IMG/VR virus record: IMGVR_UViG_3300023222_000452
Coordinates: 1 to 44,307 of that record
Length of the DNA: 44,307 nt
Source: a virus
Reading direction: 5' to 3' (one strand)
Both the position numbers and the translations under genes were made by a program. The notes beneath the pieces are model-generated. The model ran no database searches and was not told the DNA's origin. It was given only the letters and a program-made list of their open reading frames with translations. Below, piece after piece: positions 8,341-34,478 of this stretch; position 1 is the first letter of the stretch, and every line of letters begins with the position of its first letter.

Positions 8341-8937
8341 TTAAAATTGCCCAAGGTTCTCACCTGTTACTCCATCCAGATAAAAGCACCTACAGTTGGG
8401 ATGAGTCTGACTAGGAATTTTAACTCGTTTTACATCATCTATGGAATACACTGTTCCCTCCAATGGAAGGCAGATAATATCATCTACCTTGTTGTCTCGC
8501 TGTGTCATGAATATTACTGGGCGCTTCTTTTTCTTTATTATATCAATAATTTCAGTGTCATCATTTAGTGCAGTGGTAAGTATCTTGGCAAATGATACAG
8601 ATAGTCCACCAGAGATTAATGCATTAGTAAAGGCTGTAACAATTACATCATCATCATCATCTATAACTTTTGGGGGATTCTTTAGTTCTACTAATTGAAC
8701 TGATTCTGTTACTTGTACAGCTAGTTTCTTTGATATTCCTGCGTCAGTTAGTGCTTTAGTGAATGTGATAGATTGTCTATCTGATAGTGTAAAATTAGTA
8801 CCTGATCCAATAACTCTGATTAATGCTTGATTTCCTGATAAATTGTTTAGTACCTGCGATGCTGTACCTACTGCAAAGCCTGATGATAATAATGCTTTAA
8901 TGAATCGCTCGTTTTCAGTTTCTACTTTGGCTGACAT
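8341..8937 (-). CDS. MuF-like minor head protein
   Basis: 198 residues. The C-terminal part holds the MuF signature: ICLPLEGTVYSIDDVKRVKI (Cys156) followed by HPNCRC (179-184), the conserved end of phage Mu gpF-type minor head proteins that accompany the portal. The N-terminal part is built from three related segments starting FIKALLSSG, FTKALTDAG and FTNALISGG at residues 12, 59 and 103, an internal triplication replacing the usual MuF N-terminal domain. It lies right after the portal gene. The family is known to help head assembly or carry fused enzymes; no toxin domain is seen here. Confidence 0.75.
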   Translation of the reverse strand: MSAKVETENERFIKALLSSGFAVGTASQVLNNLSGNQALIRVIGSGTNFTLSDRQSITFTKALTDAGISKKLAVQVTESVQLVELKNPPKVIDDDDDVIVTAFTNALISGGLSVSFAKILTTALNDDTEIIDIIKKKKRPVIFMTQRDNKVDDIICLPLEGTVYSIDDVKRVKIPSQTHPNCRCFYLDGVTGENLGQF

Positions 8938-8950
8938 TATTTAATTAATA

Positions 8951-10672
8951 TTATTTTCGAGATAGTTTCTTTTTGGCTATTTTATTTTGAATGTCCATGT
9001 GTTCTTTGGCTGATTTTAAAAGATCAACTTTATTTTGTATCACTTCATCTCCATTATTCACACCACTCCAATTATTCCCATGTGAATGCCAAGTTTTAGA
9101 TAGTTCTGGTCTATCATTTCCCCATACAGATGGAGTATGCCAGCTATTTCCACGATTCCCCCATGTGGAATGATTCTGTTTCTCCCATGTCTTTCTAGTT
9201 GGCGAGGTATCAGTTCCTTGAGTCGGGGAATCCTTCATCATGTCTCGTAATCCATATCTCTCCATTACTAGCTCCATTGTGGTAAATCCATTATCCACTA
9301 GCTGCATCATAATATTCCATTCTTCAGGAGGAATCTCTGTAGCAAATACTGGCTTTTCATAGTTTTGTGTAATTTTTATTGGAACGTGATCTATATCTTC
9401 TGGTTCCACCATAAATAAGATAGCAAGTATCCTATCATAGAACTGGTTTTCTAACGTCTTTTCATATCTTTCCTGAGATGGTTTAATCTCATCATTTAGT
9501 AATGAATCATTTTCCTCCCTGTTTGCATTACCTCCCATATTTCCAGTGACACCTTTTGATAACTGGAATAATGGAACGTGGTTATACCCTGCAATTCCCT
9601 CTATGCATGTTCGCTCTATTTCTAAGAGAGCTGAGATATTACCAGAATTAGTAGCACCATTAACTACACTTACTGAATGGGGTACTGATACGTCAGCGTT
9701 TCCAACATTGGCAATATCTGCATTAAAATCCTCAAGAATTGCTTTGGCCTCTGTATACTTTGATGTTGGGAGATCATGCTGGTAAATGTTTGGTGTCCTC
9801 CATGTTCTATTTGCAGCATTAATCAAATCCCTTGCATAAATAATTAGTAATACCTGTCCCAAATCATCAATGGCCTGAACTGCTGAGACCCCATAAAAGT
9901 CCCCAAAGAGTTCCAGGTTCTTTGAATTATTAAAATAGATACAACGATTAGCATCTAACAATGAACCATTTGATGATAACCCTGTTACTTCTACTCCTAC
10001 AAGTTCTCCATTATCAAAATTTACTATCGGTCTTCTTAGTAAATCTGGCCTGATTAATCGTAACGCTACAGGTAATACATATTGTCCGTCCTTGTTTCTA
10101 GTTTCAGGAAACATTCCAATTGCTGTTCTTCCTTGTTCTCGCTCAAAGAGAAACGCATCATACACCAAACTATCCAAATCCAATGTGGTGGCGTACTCAT
10201 CCATCCATATTTTAATCTCGTCTGGTGTCATTTTCTCACCTAACAAGGGAACATCAATCTTTTCAGTTTTCCATGTATCAAGATCTTCTTCTCGTATCTC
10301 CTGGTTCAATCTAGGGAGTACTGACCTGGTTGATTTTTGTATAGTTAGCTGTTGTAAGATTTGATTGGCTTTGAGGACAGCCCAATTATTTCTCATTAGT
10401 ACCCTCCACAATGCTCGCTCTTCTGGGAGGGATGGATCAACTGATGGATATATTGTAAGGTTTTTGAATGGTGCAATTTTCTTTAATGCTTTTGAATCTT
10501 TGCTGGTCTCCAGTCCTCGTCTAGTGGTTGGTTTACGCATTCCAGTAGTTGCCCATGAAGGAATTTGTGCAAATCTTTGGGGACCTGCTTTGAATGCATT
10601 TACATCAAGGTCTAACTCTAATGCAGGGACTGATCTTGCAAATGGCTTGACTTGTTTTTTATTTTTACCCAC
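8951..10672 (-). CDS. Portal protein
   Basis: 573 residues, GTG start (MGKNKKQVKPF). Mid-protein features fit SPP1/HK97-type portals: EREQGRTAIGMFPE and LRLIRPDLLRRPI (wing/stem strands), then the ISALLEIERTCIEG-IAGYNHVPLF segment and GGNANREENDSLLNDEI. These resemble the portal region around the long helix and tunnel loop. It precedes MuF and protease genes. The C-terminal tail, about residues 490-540, is an unusual Trp/His/Asn-rich stretch (STWGNRGNSWHTPSVWGN) before a Lys-rich end. Confidence 0.85.
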   Translation of the reverse strand: MGKNKKQVKPFARSVPALELDLDVNAFKAGPQRFAQIPSWATTGMRKPTTRRGLETSKDSKALKKIAPFKNLTIYPSVDPSLPEERALWRVLMRNNWAVLKANQILQQLTIQKSTRSVLPRLNQEIREEDLDTWKTEKIDVPLLGEKMTPDEIKIWMDEYATTLDLDSLVYDAFLFEREQGRTAIGMFPETRNKDGQYVLPVALRLIRPDLLRRPIVNFDNGELVGVEVTGLSSNGSLLDANRCIYFNNSKNLELFGDFYGVSAVQAIDDLGQVLLIIYARDLINAANRTWRTPNIYQHDLPTSKYTEAKAILEDFNADIANVGNADVSVPHSVSVVNGATNSGNISALLEIERTCIEGIAGYNHVPLFQLSKGVTGNMGGNANREENDSLLNDEIKPSQERYEKTLENQFYDRILAILFMVEPEDIDHVPIKITQNYEKPVFATEIPPEEWNIMMQLVDNGFTTMELVMERYGLRDMMKDSPTQGTDTSPTRKTWEKQNHSTWGNRGNSWHTPSVWGNDRPELSKTWHSHGNNWSGVNNGDEVIQNKVDLLKSAKEHMDIQNKIAKKKLSRK

Positions 10673-11981: not shown

Positions 11982-12119
11982 CTAATTACCTAGCTTGATC
12001 CCCCCATTTCTTTTTCCACATTTTGAGCATTGTCTTTTGTCTGCTGTTCCTATGTAGTAATGACCGCATTTACAAGAGAAAAGATATTGAGGCACGTATG
12101 TTATATTATAACTATCCAT
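11982..12119 (-). CDS. 45-aa zinc-ribbon protein (paralogue 1)
   Basis: MDSYNITYVPQYLFSCKCGH... with CKCG and CSKCGKR, a four-Cys zinc ribbon. It is nearly identical to the protein at 25195-25341 (same first 14 residues and the end IKLGN) and related to 20902-21021. The codons for residues 3-7 contain the palindrome GTTATATTATAAC that also forms the operators of its operon. Likely a small nucleic-acid-binding regulator; function unproven. Confidence 0.8.
   Translation of the reverse strand: MDSYNITYVPQYLFSCKCGHYYIGTADKRQCSKCGKRNGGIKLGN
12100..12112. promoter_or_regulatory. Intragenic copy of operator palindrome GTTATATTATAAC
   Basis: 13-bp perfect palindrome 4 bases inside the start of the zinc-ribbon gene. 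Identical copies lie at 12628 and 12662, and in the paralogous locus at 25322, 25574 and 25608. Confidence 0.6.
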
Positions 12120-12121
12120 TA

Positions 12122-12343
12122 TTAAGCTCTCACAACCATTTTATGAGGATTAGGAATTTCTGGGTGTGTGTACATTTTATTGAACTTTTCAACATGAACA
12201 ATCATTTTTGATTCCTCTTTTGTTTTATAATGACATCCTACACAATGAAATGGATTGTTAAATGCTCTTTCTTTTTTCTGAATGTATAATCTGTGTAATC
12301 TACGTTGATTAGCCAAACGAGCTCTTAAACCCCCTCTACCCAT
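12122..12343 (-). CDS. C2H2-like zinc-finger protein (73 aa)
   Basis: Basic N-terminus (GRGGLRARLANQRRLHRLYI) followed by CVGCHYKTKEESKMIVH and a second His (MYTH), a C2H2-type finger. ATG is one base inside the upstream stop region. Probably a DNA- or RNA-binding protein. It lies in the cassette between the two terminase halves. Confidence 0.7.
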   Translation of the reverse strand: MGRGGLRARLANQRRLHRLYIQKKERAFNNPFHCVGCHYKTKEESKMIVHVEKFNKMYTHPEIPNPHKMVVRA

Positions 12344-12627
12344 CAGTTATCAGCCTCCTCTAATCTTCTCATTCTATTCCAACCATTTGCTCCCCATGAA
12401 TCCTCTGGGTCTAATTCTGTATCATAGTTCTCACCATGTACTTTGACATTATCAATTTTGTCTTGTTCTGTCATTTCATACTTGAAACGTTTGTCGGTAT
12501 AGCTCTCAGTCAAAGAAAATTCCTGAACTTTACCAGTTGCTCTATCTACTAAGACAAGGTTGCCTATCTTGCTGTTGAACCATGCTTCTTTGAACATAGC
12601 ACTTCTAATTTTTGTTGTTGTATTCAT
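12343..12627 (-). CDS. Hypothetical protein, first gene of operator-controlled cassette (94 aa)
   Basis: MNTTTKIRSAMFKEAW..., C-terminus very acidic with Trp (EDSWGANGWNRM). Its ATG directly abuts an operator palindrome at 12628-12640, implying a leaderless or near-leaderless transcript. No family recognised. Confidence 0.7.
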   Translation of the reverse strand: MNTTTKIRSAMFKEAWFNSKIGNLVLVDRATGKVQEFSLTESYTDKRFKYEMTEQDKIDNVKVHGENYDTELDPEDSWGANGWNRMRRLEEADN

Positions 12628-12674
12628 GTTATATTATAACAACTTGTTATTTATAACACTTGTTATATTATAAC
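12628..12674 (-). promoter_or_regulatory. Promoter with palindromic operators flanking a TATA box
   Basis: Two perfect copies of GTTATATTATAAC (12628-12640 touching the ATG, and 12662-12674) are 34 bp apart. Between them an imperfect copy GTTATTTATAAC (12646-12657) reads TTATAAATAA on the minus strand, centred about 25 bases before the ATG, as expected for a TATA box of a leaderless archaeal gene. The locus at 25574-25620 has the same geometry. Confidence 0.65.
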
Positions 12675-12696
12675 ACTTTCTTTTATATAATAAAAT

Positions 12697-19171: not shown

Positions 19172-20368
19172 TTAATTAATATTTTTTAGAATTGATTCTC
19201 GAAATTTTGCCAAAGTCTGCTTCGTCTCTTTTTCAGATTGGAGTCTTGCTTCTTTTTCTTCTGTAAGTTTTTCTTCTAATTCCCCTACCTTTTTGTTTGC
19301 TTCTTGTAGCTTGCGAATCTTTTCCTTGTTTTTAGTCTGGTCAAATAGTAAGATGTATGGTGCTACCTCTACAAATAGTTCCAGTTTTTCCTCATCTGTT
19401 CTTCGTTGGTATGTTTGAAGATATGCACCATGTCCAACTATGGCATGGACTACATCGCCATCAAGAACTTTCAAAGCTTTTGTGATGAATCTGGCTCGAA
19501 ATGAGTATAGTGTAATCTTGTGTTCCCCTGTGGCCTCATATCTCATATCAAGCCCTAGATTATCCAATACTAGATTTAGTGAAAGTCTGACTGATGCCAG
19601 CATGTATGTGGCAAAAGTTTTGATTGCCTTGATTTTTGCCTTCTCTGTTTTTAGATGAGCATATTTTTTAAAAAGTGATTGTGGGACTATTTTTCTTTTG
19701 GTCCAGACAAATTCTTCATCTTGTATCTCTTTGAGTAATCGTGCAATGTAGGGCGTAGCTTCAATTGATGCATAGACGGTTCTAGAGATTCTTTTCTTTG
19801 TTAGATAATATGGAATCTCTATTTTGTACTGTCCATTGATCAAAGTATAATGTTTCTTTTGTGTACCCATTATCTCCACAGGTCGAGATCCTACACTTCC
19901 TTGAGTTAAAGTAAATCCTCTATTCCTCCAGTTTAATGCAGATACAATTGAGATAAATTCATCTTCTGATGGTGCATATTTTTCCTCCTGGATTAGTTCA
20001 GGCCACTCTAATTCCTCTTTGATGTCGTGAGCTGTAACTTTGATTTTCTTATACCAGAGATACTTGTTTAACCTTGAGAATGATTGCTTTACACTACCAT
20101 GAGATAGATCAAACTTTTCTGAAAGCCAATCAATGAATCCTTGAAGTATAGCAAATAGATCATCTTCTCGTTCATCTTCTGGGAGTGATTGGATATGAGT
20201 AATGAATTTGTCAGTATCTAGCTTGTTATATTCAGCATAAAGAAAATCATCAAATCTAGTTTTAGCTAGAGTACATGCACTGATTATACTGTCACTCATT
20301 TTATCTAGTCTGTCTTTTTGGAAGGTTTCCCAAGTTCGTTGTTTTTTTAGAGAAAGTTTTTGAGACAT
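19172..20368 (-). CDS. int: Tyrosine recombinase / integrase
   Basis: 398 residues. Catalytic residues: Arg162 (GSRPVEIMG), Lys191/192 (LTKKRIS), the YSFR box (Y288-R291) of archaeal integrases, His313 (VGHG) and the nucleophile, probably Tyr320 (YLQTYQR). A C-terminal coiled coil (about 350-395, NKKVGELEEKLTEEKEARLQ) is added. N-terminal helices act as the core-binding domain. Mediates integration, so the virus is probably temperate. ATG overlaps the upstream stop by TAATG; last gene of the operon starting at 22113. Confidence 0.9.
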   Translation of the reverse strand: MSQKLSLKKQRTWETFQKDRLDKMSDSIISACTLAKTRFDDFLYAEYNKLDTDKFITHIQSLPEDEREDDLFAILQGFIDWLSEKFDLSHGSVKQSFSRLNKYLWYKKIKVTAHDIKEELEWPELIQEEKYAPSEDEFISIVSALNWRNRGFTLTQGSVGSRPVEIMGTQKKHYTLINGQYKIEIPYYLTKKRISRTVYASIEATPYIARLLKEIQDEEFVWTKRKIVPQSLFKKYAHLKTEKAKIKAIKTFATYMLASVRLSLNLVLDNLGLDMRYEATGEHKITLYSFRARFITKALKVLDGDVVHAIVGHGAYLQTYQRRTDEEKLELFVEVAPYILLFDQTKNKEKIRKLQEANKKVGELEEKLTEEKEARLQSEKETKQTLAKFRESILKNIN

Positions 20369-22283: not shown

Positions 22284-22469
22284 TTATTTTTCCAAAGCTT
22301 GTTGCTCTTTTAGATATGTTATTGTAAACTTCATTGCTAGCTGTGCATATAGGGCTTTTTCACTTGCCAGTAACTGAGTTAATGGTGCTGCATTAGCTAC
22401 GGTCAACTCTTCATGTCCTGCTAGAAATGCCTTGTAGCATCCTTGAAGTATTTGATCATCAGTTTTCAT
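22284..22469 (-). CDS. Helical small protein (61 aa)
   Basis: MKTDDQILQGCYKAFLAGHE... Shares its first seven residues and 21 bases with the next upstream gene, showing a duplicated 5' end. Helical, soluble. Function unknown. Confidence 0.6.
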   Translation of the reverse strand: MKTDDQILQGCYKAFLAGHEELTVANAAPLTQLLASEKALYAQLAMKFTITYLKEQQALEK

Positions 22470-22473
22470 ATAA

Positions 22474-22692
22474 TCACCAATTTTTCATACCTCGTTCCAT
22501 TGCAACGCTTACAATTATTGTAAATAATCCCACTCCCCCACAAATACAAACGACAATTAACATATCCCAATTTTCATAATAAACTACTTTGAATATGGAT
22601 ATAATCAGCATAACAGGATATAATAGAATTAAACCTATTACACCTAATACTTTTAAAATATCTTTTTTAGTTATTTGATCATCAGTTTTCAT
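22474..22692 (-). CDS. Two-helix membrane protein (72 aa)
   Basis: MKTDDQI start shared with the gene at 22284, then two hydrophobic segments (VLGVIGLILLYPVMLIISIF and MLIVVCICGGVGLFTIIV). Holin-like size, but no evidence of lysis function. Confidence 0.6.
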   Translation of the reverse strand: MKTDDQITKKDILKVLGVIGLILLYPVMLIISIFKVVYYENWDMLIVVCICGGVGLFTIIVSVAMERGMKNW

Positions 22693-22693
22693 T

Positions 22694-22807
22694 TTAATTC
22701 CTTAAAGGATTCCTTTTAGATATTGATTCTAAATATATTCTATAAAATTCTGCAATCTGTTTCTTAGTATATGGATTAATCCATTTATGTAATTTCAGTC
22801 TAGCCAT
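22694..22807 (-). CDS. 37-aa basic peptide
   Basis: MARLKLHKWINPYTKKQIAE..., ATG inside the end of the previous gene, stop one base before the next ATG. Basic helix. Confidence 0.5.
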   Translation of the reverse strand: MARLKLHKWINPYTKKQIAEFYRIYLESISKRNPLRN

Positions 22808-23063
22808 AATTCCTTATTCCTATTGATAGATCATGTTTTTTGAATGGGATTGGTATCTCTAAATATTTTCTTGATGTCAGTGGTGTACTGGACGAGAATA
22901 TTGTAAACTTTGCAAATCTGTAATCATAACAGTCTCTTATGGGATCAGGATGAAACCTTGCTCCCAATCTCTGTAGTATTGTGTAATATGGAATTGATAC
23001 GCTGTTAGTCTTTTCATCCTCAAAAATAACTGATGGGATTTTACCAAATATCTTAATCAGCAT
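22800..23063 (-). CDS. Hypothetical protein (87 aa)
   Basis: MLIKIFGKIPSVIFEDEKTN..., beta rich, no recognised motif. Overlaps the 37-aa gene by 8 bases. Confidence 0.6.
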   Translation of the reverse strand: MLIKIFGKIPSVIFEDEKTNSVSIPYYTILQRLGARFHPDPIRDCYDYRFAKFTIFSSSTPLTSRKYLEIPIPFKKHDLSIGIRNYG

Positions 23064-23068
23064 ATTAT

Positions 23069-23215
23069 CTAATCAAATCCGCATCTACTTCTTAATAATG
23101 ATAGTTTGATAAATTGGTATTCCTTGATATATCCAATATCACCGGCTGCCTCACAAGATAGTATAGCTTGTCCATCCTTAAAGTTTAATTTTTCATTTCT
23201 CATTATAGCTAGCAC
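23069..23215 (-). CDS. Small hypothetical protein (44-48 aa)
   Basis: GTG at 23215 or ATG at 23203 (MRNEKLNFKDGQAILSC...). Stop six bases before the next ATG. No motif recognised. Confidence 0.45.
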   Translation of the reverse strand: MLAIMRNEKLNFKDGQAILSCEAAGDIGYIKEYQFIKLSLLRSRCGFD

Positions 23216-23248
23216 AATTATTCCAGAACTATCTAGTATTTAACATCA

Positions 23249-23356
23249 TCAAGCCATATATCGACAGTACACACAGAAATTCTTGTTGTGTCTTTGTACT
23301 ACTGCTATACCATTACAACCTTTAACATCACATAGATTTGGCTTTTCTTTATTCAT
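23249..23356 (-). CDS. 35-aa zinc-ribbon peptide
   Basis: MNKEKPNLCDVKGCNG and FCVYCRYMA give C-x4-C and C-x2-C. TAATG coupling to the upstream gene. Confidence 0.6.
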   Translation of the reverse strand: MNKEKPNLCDVKGCNGIAVVQRHNKNFCVYCRYMA

Positions 23357-23640
23357 TAATAACCCCCGAATGGATCAGGCTTTTGAACTTGACTAAATGT
23401 AATATCTGATGGCCCACCATCCCAAACATGTTCTGCCTCAATGGCCATAACTGAACCGTGCAATCCATCGTCAGGCTTTCCTACCTTATCAGGTGTATAG
23501 TAACGAGAATAATATGTTCCAGTCCTGGATAACTTGATTAGTTCGGTTAGTTCGTTTGTGTGGTGGTCAATAATCCAGTTTAGTTTAGTTGGATCACTAG
23601 CTGGTAATACAATTTTGTAATAGTGTCTTGCGTGAGTCAT
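23356..23640 (-). CDS. Hypothetical protein (94 aa)
   Basis: MTHARHYYKIVLPASDPTKL..., mixed alpha/beta with His/Tyr-rich strands. TAATG overlap on both sides. No family recognised. Confidence 0.65.
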   Translation of the reverse strand: MTHARHYYKIVLPASDPTKLNWIIDHHTNELTELIKLSRTGTYYSRYYTPDKVGKPDDGLHGSVMAIEAEHVWDGGPSDITFSQVQKPDPFGGY

Positions 23641-23837
23641 TATTCTCTATATCCATCATAAATCTCTATTTCGTAATCAGGTAGTGTAGGATCTTCTTTT
23701 TTCTTTCCGTATTTGTAATAACGTGAGAAGATTAAAGGCTCCTTTTTTTCTTCATATAATTTAATTAAATCATCTAGAGTGTTTAGCTCAATAATTCCTA
23801 AATCATCACGAATTGTGTTCGTTAGGTGTATTTTCAT
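23640..23837 (-). CDS. Hypothetical acidic protein (65 aa)
   Basis: MKIHLTNTIRDDLGIIELNT..., ends in a strand-rich acidic segment. Overlaps neighbours by 4 and 1 bases. Confidence 0.6.
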   Translation of the reverse strand: MKIHLTNTIRDDLGIIELNTLDDLIKLYEEKKEPLIFSRYYKYGKKKEDPTLPDYEIEIYDGYRE

Positions 23838-24118
23838 ATCTCATCCTTTACCTTTGGTTGGAACTGTATTGGAGGATTAAATTTTAAAACTTGTATGTCT
23901 ATGGCTTCCCTATACATCATCCCTTCGGTAGTGTTAGGTAGTAAATCTCTTAACTCTTGTAACTGTAAGATTGTATTAATTTTTGATTGTGAAGCATATT
24001 TTGGCATGTGTATATCTTCCAATAATTTTCTTGCATAGGTATGGATTCCAATCATGTCATGTAAGTGATATTTTTCTCGGAATTTCTCCCATGTAGTAAA
24101 CTTCTGGATATGACTCAA
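23834..24118 (-). CDS. Hypothetical helical protein (94 aa)
   Basis: TTG start overlapping the TGA of the previous gene within the junction repeat. MSHIQKFTTWEKFREKYHLH..., helical. Last gene downstream of the repeated junctions. Confidence 0.6.
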   Translation of the reverse strand: MSHIQKFTTWEKFREKYHLHDMIGIHTYARKLLEDIHMPKYASQSKINTILQLQELRDLLPNTTEGMMYREAIDIQVLKFNPPIQFQPKVKDEI

Positions 24119-24264
24119 TTCTTTACATTCTCCTGGGAGTGTATTTCATGAGTAACTATTACATCTTGACCACATGGTAAATGTTGAATTTCCCAATAGA
24201 GTTCAGCTAATTCTGTGTGTAATCTATTCCATCTATTGTTTCTTAGCTTGAAAACAAAACTCAA
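24115..24264 (-). CDS. Junction-repeat cassette gene (49 aa)
   Basis: TTG start (MSFVFKLRNNRWNRLHTELA) and C-terminus HSQENVKN encoded by the junction repeat. The body is unlike its neighbours. The C-terminal eight residues are identical to those of the gene at 24261. Confidence 0.6.
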   Translation of the reverse strand: MSFVFKLRNNRWNRLHTELAELYWEIQHLPCGQDVIVTHEIHSQENVKN

Positions 24265-24419
24265 TTCTTTACATTCTCCTGAGAGTGTTGTACATCTATC
24301 TTAGTATCTTTGTCATAAAGTGATTCCAGATAATTCCAAGAATATATTTTATTTTTGAAAATAAAATGAAACTTTTCATCTTTAAAGACCATGTGACCAG
24401 TTTGTTGTGTTTCATTCAT
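24261..24419 (-). CDS. Junction-repeat cassette gene (52 aa)
   Basis: MNETQQTGHMVFKDEKFHFI..., C-terminus HSQENVKN. ATG lies 8 bases inside the upstream gene; another ATG at 24415 opens a different, less protein-like frame. Confidence 0.6.
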   Translation of the reverse strand: MNETQQTGHMVFKDEKFHFIFKNKIYSWNYLESLYDKDTKIDVQHSQENVKN

Positions 24420-24633
24420 TTTTTACGTTCTCCATATTCTGTTTTGCATAGATTTTATCACCACAATTAGCTAATGCGATACTAATTTCAATCTCATCTT
24501 CTAGATTGTATTTATGAATATTAGGTACTGTGTATGTTCCATCATAATCAGCTAAACCTGAAATCTGAATTATATCATCATCAGGTAAATTATCATTCCA
24601 ATATTTTTCTGCAGCTTTAGTGTATTTGTTCAA
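24412..24633 (-). CDS. Junction-repeat cassette gene (73 aa)
   Basis: TTG start in TTGA overlap; MNKYTKAAEKYWNDNLPDDD..., C-terminus NMENVKNE, a variant of the shared tail. Acidic, no recognised domain. Confidence 0.65.
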   Translation of the reverse strand: MNKYTKAAEKYWNDNLPDDDIIQISGLADYDGTYTVPNIHKYNLEDEIEISIALANCGDKIYAKQNMENVKNE

Positions 24634-24764
24634 TCCTTAATCTTCTCCATAGAGTGTATTTCTTTGAACTTCATACATCCACAGTCTGAATTATCACAAT
24701 ATGTAGAGTTCCAATGTTCGATAAGGATATGTCCACACTCACATTCTGCGTAGGTAGCACTCAA
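24630..24764 (-). CDS. Junction-repeat cassette gene, zinc binding (44 aa)
   Basis: MSATYAECECGHILIEHWNS then CDNSDCGC, several Cys pairs; C-terminus HSMEKIKD. TTG start in TTGA overlap. Confidence 0.6.
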   Translation of the reverse strand: MSATYAECECGHILIEHWNSTYCDNSDCGCMKFKEIHSMEKIKD

Positions 24765-24952
24765 TTCTTTACCGCCTCATCTTCTATTTTTTCTATAGGA
24801 AGTGTGTTTAGTAGTTTTAGACAATCTTCACATATTGGAGAATAATAGACATATCCTTTGTATTGTTTAAACTTGACATAGGGTTTTGAAGTTCCATATG
24901 CACCAAACCAAACTACATCATGACAAAGTAAACAATGTATTGATTCACTCAA
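24761..24952 (-). CDS. Junction-repeat cassette gene, zinc binding (63 aa)
   Basis: TTG start at 24952 chosen because it recreates the TTGA junction (MSESIHCLLCHDVVWFG); an upstream ATG at 24976 would overlap the previous gene by 28 bases. CLLC and CEDC pairs. C-terminus EDEAVKN. Confidence 0.65.
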   Translation of the reverse strand: MSESIHCLLCHDVVWFGAYGTSKPYVKFKQYKGYVYYSPICEDCLKLLNTLPIEKIEDEAVKN

Positions 24953-25152
24953 TTTTCTATCTCCTTCTCCATACATTCCAACTCTTTAAGATGGTCTTTA
25001 TCTTTTACTTTTCCTTTCTCTGCACAGTACAGTTGAGTCATGCCATTGTATAGTGTGATCTCATAGTATAGCTCGCCATCCTTTCTTGATGTACTGAATT
25101 TGACGTATCCGCCTTCAAAATAATTCTCATCAGGAGTTCTAATTACTTTCAT
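24949..25152 (-). CDS. Hypothetical protein, first before the junction-repeat run (67 aa)
   Basis: MKVIRTPDENYFEGGYVKFS..., beta rich, C-terminus CMEKEIEN resembles the shared tail. Its stop is the first TTGA junction. Confidence 0.6.
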   Translation of the reverse strand: MKVIRTPDENYFEGGYVKFSTSRKDGELYYEITLYNGMTQLYCAEKGKVKDKDHLKELECMEKEIEN

Positions 25153-25194
25153 GTTGTTGTCCCATACCTTTGCTTTAAAGTGTCGTGCGTTAGT

Positions 25195-25341
25195 TTAGTT
25201 TCCAAGCTTGATCCCCTCGTTTCTTTTACCGCACTTTGAGCATTGTCTTTTTTGTTCTGTTCCTATGTAGTAATGACCACATTTAGGATTTTTACACTGA
25301 AAAAGATATTGAGGCACGTATGTTATATTATAACTATCCAT
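25195..25341 (-). CDS. 48-aa zinc-ribbon protein (paralogue 2)
   Basis: MDSYNITYVPQYLFQCKNPK then CGHYYIG and CSKCGKR. Same start and end as the gene at 11982, but with CKNPKC instead of CKC. Contains the operator palindrome in its first codons. Confidence 0.8.
   Translation of the reverse strand: MDSYNITYVPQYLFQCKNPKCGHYYIGTEQKRQCSKCGKRNEGIKLGN
25322..25334. promoter_or_regulatory. Intragenic operator palindrome GTTATATTATAAC, second locus
   Basis: Same 13-bp palindrome in the same position, within codons 3-7 of a zinc-ribbon gene, as at 12100-12112. Confidence 0.6.
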
Positions 25342-25349
25342 ATTAACTC

Positions 25350-25460
25350 TCAACCCTCGTTACACTCACAATTAGTTCTAAATCCATTACCAAAACAGAC
25401 TGTACATTGATGAGAACATTCCATTGAAAGTCCTGATTTTAAACACCAGTTGCAGCTCAA
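25350..25460 (-). CDS. 36-aa Cys-rich peptide
   Basis: TTG start in TTGA overlap: MSCNWCLKSGLSMECSHQCT then CFGNGF and CECNEG. Seven or more Cys plus His, likely metal binding. Confidence 0.55.
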   Translation of the reverse strand: MSCNWCLKSGLSMECSHQCTVCFGNGFRTNCECNEG

Positions 25461-25573
25461 TAGTTCTCAAATCCTTTGCCACAAGCAATACAATACTCAG
25501 TTCCAAAACAAAAACCTTCACTGTTTATTGCTGGTTTCTCACATTTTCTTTTTTGTGTTATTGTTGTATACAT
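25457..25573 (-). CDS. 38-aa Cys-rich peptide, first gene of second operator locus
   Basis: MYTTITQKRKCEKPAINSEG then CFGTEYCIACGKG. ATG abuts the operator palindrome at 25574. Counterpart by position of the 94-aa gene at 12343. Confidence 0.55.
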   Translation of the reverse strand: MYTTITQKRKCEKPAINSEGFCFGTEYCIACGKGFENY

Positions 25574-25620
25574 GTTATATTATAACACTATCCCATATAT
25601 AATACTTGTTATATTATAAC
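25574..25620 (-). promoter_or_regulatory. Promoter with palindromic operators, second locus
   Basis: GTTATATTATAAC at 25574-25586 (touching the ATG) and 25608-25620, again 34 bp apart, with TATTATATATG between as TATA box on the minus strand. Confidence 0.65.
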
Positions 25621-25623
25621 ACC

Positions 25624-25731
25624 TTACCATTCATTCTCGTCCCCCACAGGTAAATTATTAATTATATTTTTCATTAATGTTAAAGAGATACAATCTCTAG
25701 GTGTGATGAATCTCCACACTATTTTCTTCAC
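25624..25731 (-). CDS. 35-aa peptide with GTG start
   Basis: MKKIVWRFITPRDCISLTLM... preceded by GTTCAGC directly before GTG, the same leader as at 26046 and 26161. Ends just before the second-locus operators. Confidence 0.45.
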   Translation of the reverse strand: MKKIVWRFITPRDCISLTLMKNIINNLPVGDENEW

Positions 25732-25753
25732 GCTGAACACTTACCTCGGATTG

Positions 25754-25897
25754 TCATTGCCAATGCTTCTCCCATCCATCATTTTCAATGTCAATCATAG
25801 TTTCACAGTCATAACAAATATCTTGCTTGTGTAATTTATGAATTGAAAAATAATATTCACATCTTTTACATTTCCTTCTTTCAATCCTTGAATCCAT
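25754..25897 (-). CDS. 47-aa zinc-ribbon protein
   Basis: MDSRIERRKCKRCEYYFSIH then CYDC give two CxxC pairs. An AGGAGA motif about 11 bases before the ATG. Confidence 0.6.
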   Translation of the reverse strand: MDSRIERRKCKRCEYYFSIHKLHKQDICYDCETMIDIENDGWEKHWQ

Positions 25898-25899
25898 GC

Positions 25900-26046
25900 T
25901 TAACGTTCTCTCCTATCGGTCAGGTACTGTTTGTGTAATTTTAAACCATAATCATTATGAAGGTTTAATGGAAGGTCACACCATTTACATGTAATAGGTT
26001 CTTTGGGTTCATCCCATCCTCTACCGAATCCTCTAGGTAGTGTCAT
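25900..26046 (-). CDS. 48-aa C2H2-like protein
   Basis: Start at 26046 chosen for the GAGGAAAGGTTCAGC leader just before the ATG (MTLPRGFGRGWDEPK); a longer frame begins at 26121 inside the upstream gene. CKWCDLPLNLHNDYGLKLH is a C2H2-type finger. Confidence 0.6.
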   Translation of the reverse strand: MTLPRGFGRGWDEPKEPITCKWCDLPLNLHNDYGLKLHKQYLTDRRER

Positions 26047-26068
26047 GCTGAACCTTTCCTCGATACTG

Positions 26069-26161
26069 TCATTGACCTGATACCTCAGCTGTATTTTTAC
26101 AAGTACAATAAGGATAATCATATTTCCATTTTCTATTGATACAGCTTACTTGATGTTTCAT
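26069..26161 (-). CDS. 30-aa peptide with CTC
   Basis: MKHQVSCINRKWKYDYPYCT..., preceded by AGAGGTTCAGC and ATG. Supported mainly by the shared leader. Confidence 0.4.
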   Translation of the reverse strand: MKHQVSCINRKWKYDYPYCTCKNTAEVSGQ

Positions 26162-26195
26162 GCTGAACCTCTTTCTTTAACGGTATTGTATTGGT

Positions 26196-26630
26196 TCATT
26201 TCTCCAGCTCCTGAATTATTGCATTTTGTGCGTTTATGACTTGTTGCAAGTCAGTTAGGATATGTTGTGATGTTACAGCTTTACGTGCATTTAACTTTTC
26301 AATACTTGTTGTTGTAAGTATAGCCTCTGCATCAGTATTTACCATATTATTCTGAAGCCTATCTACTGATTTCATTATTGACTCATACTCATGTATAAAC
26401 AAAAATCCACGGTCTGTAACTTTGAGTGGTTTAATGGTCATCAGTCCATGTTTTTCCAAGTTTATGATGATTTTCTTTATTCTATCATATGCCATCTGTG
26501 CAATTAATTGAATACGGGTTAATCCTATATTTGTCTCCCCTTCTACTGTTTGTTGGCTGATGTCAGTTTCTTTAGCTATTGCATGGAGAATGTCATATAT
26601 TATTTTTAGCCGGGTTCTTCTCTCTCTCAT
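26196..26630 (-). CDS. Winged-helix transcription regulator (144 aa)
   Basis: MRERRTRLKIIYDILHAIAK, GLTRIQLIAQMAYDRIKKII, GLMTIKPLKVTDRGFLFIHE: helix-turn-helix plus wing in the arrangement of archaeal winged-helix proteins abundant in ammonia-oxidising archaea. C-terminal helical tail. Start at 26630 avoids overlap with the gene upstream (stop 26641). Confidence 0.75.
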   Translation of the reverse strand: MRERRTRLKIIYDILHAIAKETDISQQTVEGETNIGLTRIQLIAQMAYDRIKKIIINLEKHGLMTIKPLKVTDRGFLFIHEYESIMKSVDRLQNNMVNTDAEAILTTTSIEKLNARKAVTSQHILTDLQQVINAQNAIIQELEK

Positions 26631-26640
26631 GGTATAATAA

Positions 26641-26826
26641 TCACATCTTTTTCCTCTTTTGTGCATTGTAGTGCTTGTTATCAATTTGATGTTTTATGAA
26701 CAGTTCTAATTTAATACAGTCAAACAATTTTCCACAGTCAACACATACCCAGTTGTAATCACAATCATAGATAGTTGAGAATGAAAAGAATTCTTTTAGT
26801 TTTTTTAAGATATTATTCAATTTCAT
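26641..26826 (-). CDS. C2H2-like small protein (61 aa)
   Basis: Start at 26826 (MKLNNILKKLKEFFSF), overlapping the previous gene end by 14 bases. CVDCGKLFDC then HQIDNKHYN supplies Cys and His of a finger. Confidence 0.6.
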   Translation of the reverse strand: MKLNNILKKLKEFFSFSTIYDCDYNWVCVDCGKLFDCIKLELFIKHQIDNKHYNAQKRKKM

Positions 26827-28024
26827 AGTGTATCTCCTGAGAATATTGTAAGGCTTCATTTGCTATTTTTAGTTTATAGTCTGCAAAGTTACAGTTTAGT
26901 CTAGTCCATACTTGGATGGTATCTAATGGAGGATCTTTACATTCATACTTGTATGGTGTGATACTTTGAGGTTCTACATAATTAGGATCTGTTACAATAA
27001 TTCCATGATTAAAGTATGTGGTGAAACTATTGTTGTCGTTATCCCATCCGTTAATAGCTAGAACATTATGATTTGGTATTCCATTAAAGGTCCAGTAAAT
27101 ATCTAGCTGTAAACAATTATGAAAATAACCATCCATGCAGGAAACAAGTGATGCATCTACTCTATAATTATTAATTATATCATTTTTGTCTACTAAAATA
27201 ACAGATTCTAATGCTGGATTTTCAATGTCATGTGAAGTGTTTTTAATGTCAATTTCCAATCTTGGCTCAAATGTATTAACTGGGGAACCAATCTCTTTTA
27301 CCATTCCAAACTGAATGTAATCAATATTGTATGCTCCTTGGTTCTCATACACTTTGATAGTCAAGTGATTTTCTTTGTATAAGTCGGTATACTGTGGAGG
27401 CATAGAAGTTTTAAAGTAATTTGCCTGGAATGATTTATTATTCAATGTCAAACCGTAATCAACAAATCTTTTTCCTTGATTATCAAGTCCTATCGTTGGA
27501 GCGGTACAATCATTACAACTGTCTTTCCCAGCATTGGGATAATCATCATTTGTGGGAAATGTTTCACTAGCTTCTGGTGGTGTAATGTTAGTGCCATTAC
27601 CTACTTCACTTAATACTACTTCTTCAAATGGTGGTGGTGGTGTTTCAGAAAGAACATTAAAGAATAATTTTGCAGATGGTGTTAATTGGTGATGTCCTTC
27701 CCCAACACAAACGACCCTATATTCGCCTGGAGTTAATTTGTATGGCTGTATTACAAGTTCACTTTCAGGTACTCCGATTTTAGTTGGGCCAATCCAATTA
27801 GTAATGACTGGATATTTACTATCAGTGTTATAGACACGCCATTGGAATAACTGGATTATGTCTGGGTTGTCTGGTGTGCATTGTATTGTGATGGTATCAG
27901 ATTCTTCATATTCTAATTGATTAGTTGTGAGTGTTACTTTACCGTGATAATATGCGTCTGCATCATCAAATGATACCATAACAACAAAAGATAGTAAAAA
28001 AATAACAAGTAAAAGATACTTCAT
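26813..28024 (-). CDS. Secreted protein of ammonia-oxidiser type with Ig-like domain (403 aa)
   Basis: Signal peptide (MKYLLLVIFLLSFVVMVSF to DADA, about 1-24), a beta-sandwich domain (30-125; LTTNQLEYEESDTITIQC), a Pro-rich linker, then a domain beginning CNDCTAPTIG (170-179) with KVYENQGAYNIDYIQFGMV and later LQLDIYWTFNGIPNHN. From memory this last domain resembles a secreted family frequent in Nitrosopumilus-type genomes. ATG overlaps the stop of the regulator gene (ATGA). Likely placed on the cell surface or released; function unknown. Confidence 0.75.
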   Translation of the reverse strand: MKYLLLVIFLLSFVVMVSFDDADAYYHGKVTLTTNQLEYEESDTITIQCTPDNPDIIQLFQWRVYNTDSKYPVITNWIGPTKIGVPESELVIQPYKLTPGEYRVVCVGEGHHQLTPSAKLFFNVLSETPPPPFEEVVLSEVGNGTNITPPEASETFPTNDDYPNAGKDSCNDCTAPTIGLDNQGKRFVDYGLTLNNKSFQANYFKTSMPPQYTDLYKENHLTIKVYENQGAYNIDYIQFGMVKEIGSPVNTFEPRLEIDIKNTSHDIENPALESVILVDKNDIINNYRVDASLVSCMDGYFHNCLQLDIYWTFNGIPNHNVLAINGWDNDNNSFTTYFNHGIIVTDPNYVEPQSITPYKYECKDPPLDTIQVWTRLNCNFADYKLKIANEALQYSQEIHYEIE

Positions 28025-28164
28025 TTGAAGTACTTCCTCAAAGAGTCATTTATGACCCTCGAGTAACTGTATGCTGTGTTTCTCCTTTTGATTACTTTTG
28101 CCTGTAAATCTCGGAGTTTTTTGTTTATATCCTCATCTATTATGATGGTTACTCGTTTTGACAT
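28021..28164 (-). CDS. Ribbon-helix-helix regulator (47 aa)
   Basis: MSKRVTIIIDEDINKKLRDL then AYSYSRVINDSLRKYFK: strand, helix, turn, helix of the CopG/Arc type. Coupled by ATGA to the secreted-protein gene, so it probably autoregulates both. AT-rich promoter upstream (TATGTGTAGTATATTAAT). Confidence 0.8.
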   Translation of the reverse strand: MSKRVTIIIDEDINKKLRDLQAKVIKRRNTAYSYSRVINDSLRKYFK

Positions 28165-28299
28165 TAAAGTATGATAGTATGTGTAGTATATTAATTTATC
28201 AAATTAAGTATGAATAATTAGTTTCAGAAATTAATTAAGATTTAGAAAAAATAGAGAGTTGACTTGTTAATCAATTTTAAAAAAAATAAGGTATTTTTT

Positions 28300-33827: not shown

Positions 33828-34390
33828 TCTTCCAAGGCTAAAGTGAATTGTAATGGCTCTTGATCAGTATCACACCTAATTTGAAAGACATCACCTTTTC
33901 TTATAGGTAAACTTCGAAATGCCACACCTATTATATCTTGATCATTGTTTATTGGATAAGGTATACCATTTTTAAAAATAGATACTGTGCCATCAATAAT
34001 CAAATTAAAATCAAGATGTAAAAATGTCAAAAGTTCGTCTGGAAAATTATCAGGTAATGCAAATCCTCCCCCTGTGACTGCTGCCGTTACAGGTCCTGTA
34101 AATGATAAGCCGCCAGATACTATAACATACGATGTTACTTGTCCATTTGTAATCACTCCTTTAATTATAGCTCCTTTCCCATTCACTCCTGCCTCACTAA
34201 GTACAATAGTGGGAGGAAAAGTAAAACCAGATCCTAAAGCATTTGGTTGTACATCAGTTATTACACCACCTGATTCTGTTACTATAGCTGTAGCACCTGT
34301 TCCGCCACCATCTGTTAGCCAATCAAATGTAGCCTCTATTACACCTTCAAAACTTTCAATAATTGTAAATCCTGATTTCCCCATAATCAA
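33824..34390 (-). CDS. Structural protein with Gly-rich repeat domain (188 aa)
   Basis: TGATAIVTESGGVITDVQPN, ALGSGFTFPPTIVLSEAG is a motif common in phage fibre proteins (variants GSGYTxPPTV). C-terminal half is beta sandwich. ATGA overlap with the propeller gene. Confidence 0.65.
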   Translation of the reverse strand: MIMGKSGFTIIESFEGVIEATFDWLTDGGGTGATAIVTESGGVITDVQPNALGSGFTFPPTIVLSEAGVNGKGAIIKGVITNGQVTSYVIVSGGLSFTGPVTAAVTGGGFALPDNFPDELLTFLHLDFNLIIDGTVSIFKNGIPYPINNDQDIIGVAFRSLPIRKGDVFQIRCDTDQEPLQFTLALEE

Positions 34391-34425
34391 AAATAAATAA
34401 AAATTAGAATAAAAATAGTATCATA

Positions 34426-34438
34426 TTCTTATTAAGAA
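34426..34438. promoter_or_regulatory. TTCTTATTAAGAA palindrome between divergent genes
   Basis: Lies between the minus gene starting at 34390 and the plus gene starting at 34479, about 40 bp from each, so could serve both promoters. Confidence 0.5.
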
Positions 34439-34478
34439 AGTCACACACTTTATTATCTAAAGTAATATTTGTTTTATC

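Follow-up and report, generated by a model that had tools for sequence, protein, structure and literature searches.

Along the viral contig studied here (an IMG/VR record of 44,307 bases, analysed over its whole length and hereafter called the window), six consecutive borders between small genes look alike, and the genes that they join do not. The question raised by this locus is whether these borders are elements in their own right, at which genes can be exchanged, or only the by-product of the signals that closely packed genes need.

The window probably derives from a tailed virus, with a thaumarchaeal (Nitrososphaeria) host being likely rather than proven. Its large terminase matches Pfam Terminase_6N and its capsid protein PHROG 1650 (major head protein), whereas the host assignment follows from a single distant terminase match, the top-listed one among known phages, to the Nitrososphaera provirus Pro-Nvie1 (22.6% identity). 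Searches of the terminase and the integrase against species genomes gave no match, nor did those of the capsid and KxIRTP proteins (see below) against annotated phages.

Six further contigs were retrieved with the terminase, the portal and the KxIRTP protein as baits: G001 and G002 from metagenome 3300022690, G003, G004 and G006 from metagenome 3300023443, and G005 from metagenome 3300026541. The head, packaging or tail genes of the window are common to G001–G004, with proteins mostly 70–98% identical; at the nucleotide level, core genes of the window and of G001 and G002 are mostly 82–94% identical (also given as 83–90%). G005 and G006 are devoid of the structural genes of the window, G005 having other structural ORFs instead. 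The ends of the window (1 and 44304) map approximately 140 nt apart in G003 (L023 15580–15723), so that the window probably represents an almost complete genome, circularly permuted or circular. Furthermore, 64 bp located upstream of a gene (34376–34439) resemble L023 4811–4874 and L025 15986–16049, which adjoin the portal genes of G003 and G004, respectively; this likeness could reflect a common promoter.

The six borders belong to a variable array of small genes, flanked by a probable tyrosine recombinase gene (19172–20368, assigned by motif reading, Pfam giving no match) and by a region shared with G001, which resumes from 28.23 kb. The limits of the array were drawn after inspection and its gene calls are mechanical, some of the tiny ORFs possibly lacking translation. 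Its features are as follows.

22400–28200 (−): the whole variable array, approximately 25 small co-directional genes
23834–24118 (−): gene of 94 aa with a TTG start
24115–24264 (−): gene of 49 aa, short weak similarity to L010 7404–7634 of G002
24261–24419 (−): gene of 52 aa, body detected in the window alone
24412–24633 (−): gene of 73 aa, weak similarity to L020 9302–9460 of G005
24630–24764 (−): Cys-rich gene of 44 aa, body detected in the window alone
24761–24952 (−): gene of 63 aa with a Cys-rich start, body detected in the window alone
24949–25152 (−): anchor gene KxIRTP, 67 aa, of no known family; it occurs in five viruses, where different genes follow it
25149–25205 (−): leader micro-ORF of KxIRTP, 18 codons (27–31 codons in G001, G005 and G006)
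25195–25353 (−): zinc-ribbon-like gene, 83% nucleotide identity over 159 nt to window 11983–12132
25728–25757 (−): family B micro-ORF MTIRGKCSA (CGAGGTAAGTGTTCAGCGTGA)
26043–26072 (−): family B micro-ORF MTVSRKGSA, sharing an ATGA overlap with its neighbours at both ends
26158–26199 (−): family B micro-ORF MNQYNTVKERGSA

Palindrome pairs TGTTATATTATAACA, exactly 34 nt apart, were also observed before a core gene (12627–12675) and within the array (25573–25621). They are kept in G004 (L025 18026–18074), and G002 displays TGCTATAATATAGCA pairs with identical 34-nt spacing (L010 4580–4628); as both half sites changed together in G002, these palindromes are probably paired operators.

All six borders lie on the minus strand, between 24112 and 24987, and each is a tight stop/start junction between genes of that strand. 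The sequences repeated at these borders, called linkers below, are the following.

24113–24149 (−): J1, family A, ATGAAATACACTCCCAGGAGAATGTAAAGAATTGAGT; ends gene 24115–24264 and provides the TTG start of gene 23834–24118
24259–24295 (−): J2, family A, with the 20-mer of J1; ends gene 24261–24419 and provides the TTG start of gene 24115–24264
24407–24447 (−): J3, family A, ATG version, GCAAAACAGAATATGGAGAACGTAAAAAATGAATGA
24628–24664 (−): J4, family A, GAAATACACTCTATGGAGAAGATTAAGGATTGA
24758–24792 (−): J5, weak variant, GATGAGGCGGTAAAGAATTGAGT
24946–24976 (−): J6, TGTATGGAGAAGGAGATAGAAAATTGAGTG

A sequence-only reading had described the six borders as variants of a single 20-mer, a description which is fair for two to four of them and generous for two. 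Indeed, GGAGAATGTAAAGAATTGAG is exact at 24114–24133 (J1) and 24260–24279 (J2), and no other site comes within three mismatches, for a chance expectation of 0.02 matches at that tolerance (none of 100 shuffles reached two). The longer repeat around this 20-mer spans 37 nt, over which J1 and J2 are 89% identical, the value for J4 being 73%. J3 and J4 are clear variants, whereas J5 and J6 are weak ones, sharing mainly the Shine–Dalgarno (SD) motif and the AATTGAG part. The protein tails encoded at the six borders are SQENVKN, SQENVKN, NMENVKNE, SMEKIKD, EDEAVKN and CMEKEIEN. The same reading had each TGA overlapping a TTG start, and this stands for J1, J2, J4 and J5, where the overlapping TTG is the earliest possible start of the downstream ORF; J3 uses ATG, and J6 has an additional in-frame ATG 24 nt upstream (24976). 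A stop/start overlap with the SD motif inside the upstream gene is directly visible at J1, J2, J4, J5 and J6.

The pattern proved to be broader than first described, as the linker runs approximately 15–20 nt upstream of the ribosome site and is present in relatives. When the stretch around J3 was compared with G005, the sole blastn match was the linker itself (41 nt, 90%); ATACACTCTATGGAGA, the part of J4 upstream of the ribosome site, is repeated exactly at two borders of G001, and the first 23 nt of J6 are exact in G001, G005 and G006. A second linker family (B: CGAGGTAAsTGTyCAGCATGA and similar) occupies window 25728–26199; the window, G001 and G006 contain it as 9-codon micro-ORFs or at the ends of genes, and G005 has a partial copy. 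Linkers are found in G005 and G006 despite structural genes unrelated to those of the window.

In the arrays, gene content differs from one virus to another. Approximately 4 of the 25 array genes of the window (at least 25 aa) are matched by a relative in the complete G001 array, and most core genes have a relative in G001 (the fragments G003 and G004 do not cover the array). Few array proteins have a relative in any other array: the KxIRTP protein (five viruses), a winged-helix protein (HTH_45), the product of the small gene 28021–28164 and a few others. As a bait in viral contigs, the protein encoded at 23834–24118 found no relatives. No duplication is detectable among the gene bodies between the linkers of the window, which agrees with their earlier description as dissimilar. 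Moreover, the array genes of G002 stand at a different place in the genome, between the portal gene and a neighbour that abut in the window. Window 11983–12132, the partner of the zinc-ribbon-like gene, adjoins packaging genes, and their similarity indicates that genes also pass between the core and the array.

The G002 gene next to the portal (L010 10103–11515, +) contains an intein (Pfam Intein_splicing, 6e-11), absent from the window and G001. Inside it, an antisense ORF of 231 aa (L010 10706–11401, −) combines a weak match to a restriction-endonuclease family (MTES_1575, 1e-4) with an HTH, and might be a homing endonuclease.

Where similarity stops can be seen at the gene KxIRTP. Downstream of it, the window, G001 and G006 are 95–100% identical over positions −16 to +6 relative to the next start, and past the linker, from +6 to +30, identity falls to 17–42% as three different genes begin. 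In G005, KxIRTP ends differently and is followed by two other genes and then by the 23-nt block TGTATGGAGAAGGAGATAGAAAA, which forms part of a 17-codon micro-ORF and has unrelated sequence on either side. At this departure from the usual KxIRTP end (L020 10291–10350, −), two copies of TGTTACCAGTAACA are separated by approximately 30 nt and may mark another insertion. The sequence-only reading had predicted that gene content would vary between junctions that are kept, and relatives do hold the linkers and exchange the genes; neither a fixed gene order with drifting junctions nor the homologous tails of one duplicated gene, the two outcomes that would have spoken against that reading, was seen. 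One true gene duplication does occur, in G005 (L020 8636–9309, −), where 9079–9309 is 76% identical to the C-terminal half of 8636–9082 and both duplicates end in a family A linker.

Linkers in the relatives were also sought with a position matrix built from the six borders of the window only, hence a test independent of the copies chosen in relatives. Across 144 kb of relatives (both strands), approximately 10 array borders in G001, G002, G005 and G006 scored 15.6–32.6 against a shuffled maximum of 14.4. Just above this null, non-linker matches were also recorded at the two copies of the duplicated G005 gene body (16.9 and 19.7) and at three places in core genes (14.9–16.0). A matrix restricted to the upstream part of four borders is too weak by itself, about half of its top 12 matches being array borders with E near or above 1, so that the upstream extension rests on the aligned copies and on two pattern searches. 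ACACTCTATGG, upstream of the SD motif, has five exact matches in 188 kb (both strands), every one at an array border, although array coding strands make up 6.7% of the searched bases; for ATACACTYTATGGAGA, a tolerance of up to two mismatches gave six matches, all at array borders, and the reversed pattern gave none. All clear linker matches fall within an array and on its coding strand, and many array borders, J5 included, are weakly linker-like or have no obvious linker. In viral contigs, a stricter linker pattern returned none; two contigs retrieved with a looser pattern (L012 and L013) turned out on reading to be chance matches in unrelated DNA.

Most copies keep the tail in the same frame, as would be expected if the shared C-terminal peptide (xHSxENVKN) were a functional protein tag serving, for example, targeting or degradation. 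This explanation is nonetheless very improbable. Among 14 aligned copies, differences are about equal at all three codon positions, with 68 synonymous versus 468 non-synonymous codon differences and hence no synonymous excess (the copies were picked for matching, so that the figures on conservation characterize the family without testing it). Linker DNA is also found in another frame (near L020 8881, VGECKGMSEK, running on into the next gene), without a stop inside a fused ORF (L008 15755–16120, QEIQNMENVKHGLF), and as micro-ORFs in G005 (MIHAIHFMEKED, MTHARQLFTNVKEEKENE and MKHFNIRRECMEKEIEN) and G006 (MTHARQYYN). As far as codon positions and frames indicate, the linker is thus a DNA or RNA element more than a peptide tag.

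The linkers also carry recognizable translation signals. With a gene caller that rewards neither SD motifs nor overlaps, an SD-like motif precedes 56 of 96 array genes (58%) versus 43 of 156 core genes (28%; p = 1.5e-6), and stop/start overlaps join 49 of 92 array neighbours (53%) versus 52 of 150 core neighbours (35%; p = 0.005). In the linkers (consensus CAATACACTCTATGGAGAATGTAAAGAATTGA), the GGAG sits 8–11 nt before the start. The combination of overlap and SD motif is the arrangement shown to give termination–reinitiation in Haloferax volcanii and Escherichia coli (PMC6728339), and the next gene is probably translated in this manner, such coupling being read from the sequence.

These signals could in principle account for the resemblance by themselves: in an AT-rich genome, the need for an SD motif and for overlapping stop and start codons would make borders alike, gene bodies evolving fast and without any exchange. 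The composition of J5 and J6, largely reduced to these signals, and the GGAG core, which forms the most constant columns of the linker, are in keeping with such a constraint. It is nevertheless improbable as the explanation, since similarity extends 15–20 nt beyond the SD motif (mean pairwise identity of 65% over the 15 nt upstream, with invariant columns A-10, A-7 and C-6), an upstream identity which constraint is unlikely to produce. The block identical in G005 between unrelated flanks points the same way, and the genes between linkers vary in number and in length, a variation that divergence by itself does not produce.

Alternatively, a site-specific recombinase could act at the linkers, much as one does at the attC sites of integrons. 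A few kilobases away lies a probable integrase gene that G001 and G005 also possess, and a family B-like linker precedes the integrase gene in G005; the linkers, however, lie inside coding sequence and their spacing varies by whole codons, and we give this possibility hardly any credit. A foldable site at each cassette end, as in integrons, was not found in the linkers. The hairpin (attC) reading was rejected as such, single-strand folding of the six linkers being overall no better than that of shuffles (z-scores −1.7 to +1.2).

Linkers repeated across unrelated genes and genomes, a loss of similarity at their edge and a turnover of genes between them are what is observed. The explanation that we favour, and consider likely, is that translation-coupling linkers delimit a mosaic accessory array in which genes are gained, lost and replaced at the linkers. 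In this view, at least two linker families, of approximately 25–40 nt, have copies at many gene borders of the array, each combining the end of one ORF, an SD-like GGAG or GAGG and a stop/start overlap (AATTGA or ATGA). A gene ending in a linker would function before any gene starting at one; as any linker end fits any linker start, genes could be exchanged without breaking the chain, and linker-only micro-ORFs would probably be remnants left after the loss of a gene body. The comparison of arrays gives good support for a turnover of genes at the linkers, and we infer homologous recombination between linkers to be a main route of exchange. More tentatively, the linkers may be standard connectors, recombination between copies inserting, deleting and swapping genes with the chain kept and the array circulating among archaeal tailed viruses with unrelated capsids. 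If so, the same short sequence would offer both homology for exchange and a guarantee of expression.

The main rival is illegitimate recombination followed by selection, accepted as the other model of how phage mosaics arise (PMC3233612), in which joins are random, those with working translation survive, and breakpoints come to lie at borders without linker guidance. The many array borders that are not obvious linkers would fit it. It does not predict linker repeats within one genome, such as the two exact 20-mers of the window or the five close copies found within G005, and we regard it as rather unlikely.

Several known systems resemble these arrays in part. T4-type promoter stem-loop cassettes, with a similar motif in the haloarchaeal virus HGTV-1 (cited in PMC3950731), share with them repeated elements before small genes, a variable region, a proposed role in shuffling and, for HGTV-1, an archaeal tailed virus. 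As described there, those elements are promoters with stem-loops, whereas the linkers hold no stable hairpin and resemble translation signals. The SAS/ESAS sequences of cluster K mycobacteriophages (13-bp GGGATAGGAGCCC, half of them with 17-bp inverted repeats; PMC3203893) are also comparable: like the linkers, they are repeated SD-containing sequences with which many small non-structural genes of one orientation begin, they are absent from structural genes, and they exceed in similarity what rRNA pairing needs. The linkers are nonetheless not SAS: GGGATAGGAGCCC within 3–7 bp of starts was not found, the GGAG being further off, and they have another consensus, no inverted repeats and an included upstream coding end with TTG/TGA overlap. 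Gene pairs undergoing termination–reinitiation in archaea and bacteria (PMC6728339) display the same stop/start overlap and SD motif inside the upstream gene; there it characterizes gene pairs in general, and neither a repeated linker nor gene exchange goes with it.

The nearest counterparts are the boundary (linker) sequences of phages (PMC3233612), which are likewise short conserved sequences at borders, with different flanking genes in different genomes, and proposed to supply homology for exchange. The present linkers differ from them in recurring inside a single genome, in encoding the last residues of the upstream protein, in carrying a ribosome site and overlapping stop and start, and in belonging to a probable archaeal virus. 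For phage mosaic breakpoints at gene borders, guidance by boundary sequences and random joining with selection are the two models (PMC3233612). Here the linkers recur both inside a genome and from one genome to another, their existence has a plausible explanation in that each is a start site and a coupling overlap, and the array in which they lie changes in content beside a core that is 83–90% identical. The guided model is thereby directly testable in a population of these viruses. Taken together, the linkers suggest a simple rule for adding small genes to a polycistronic viral array.
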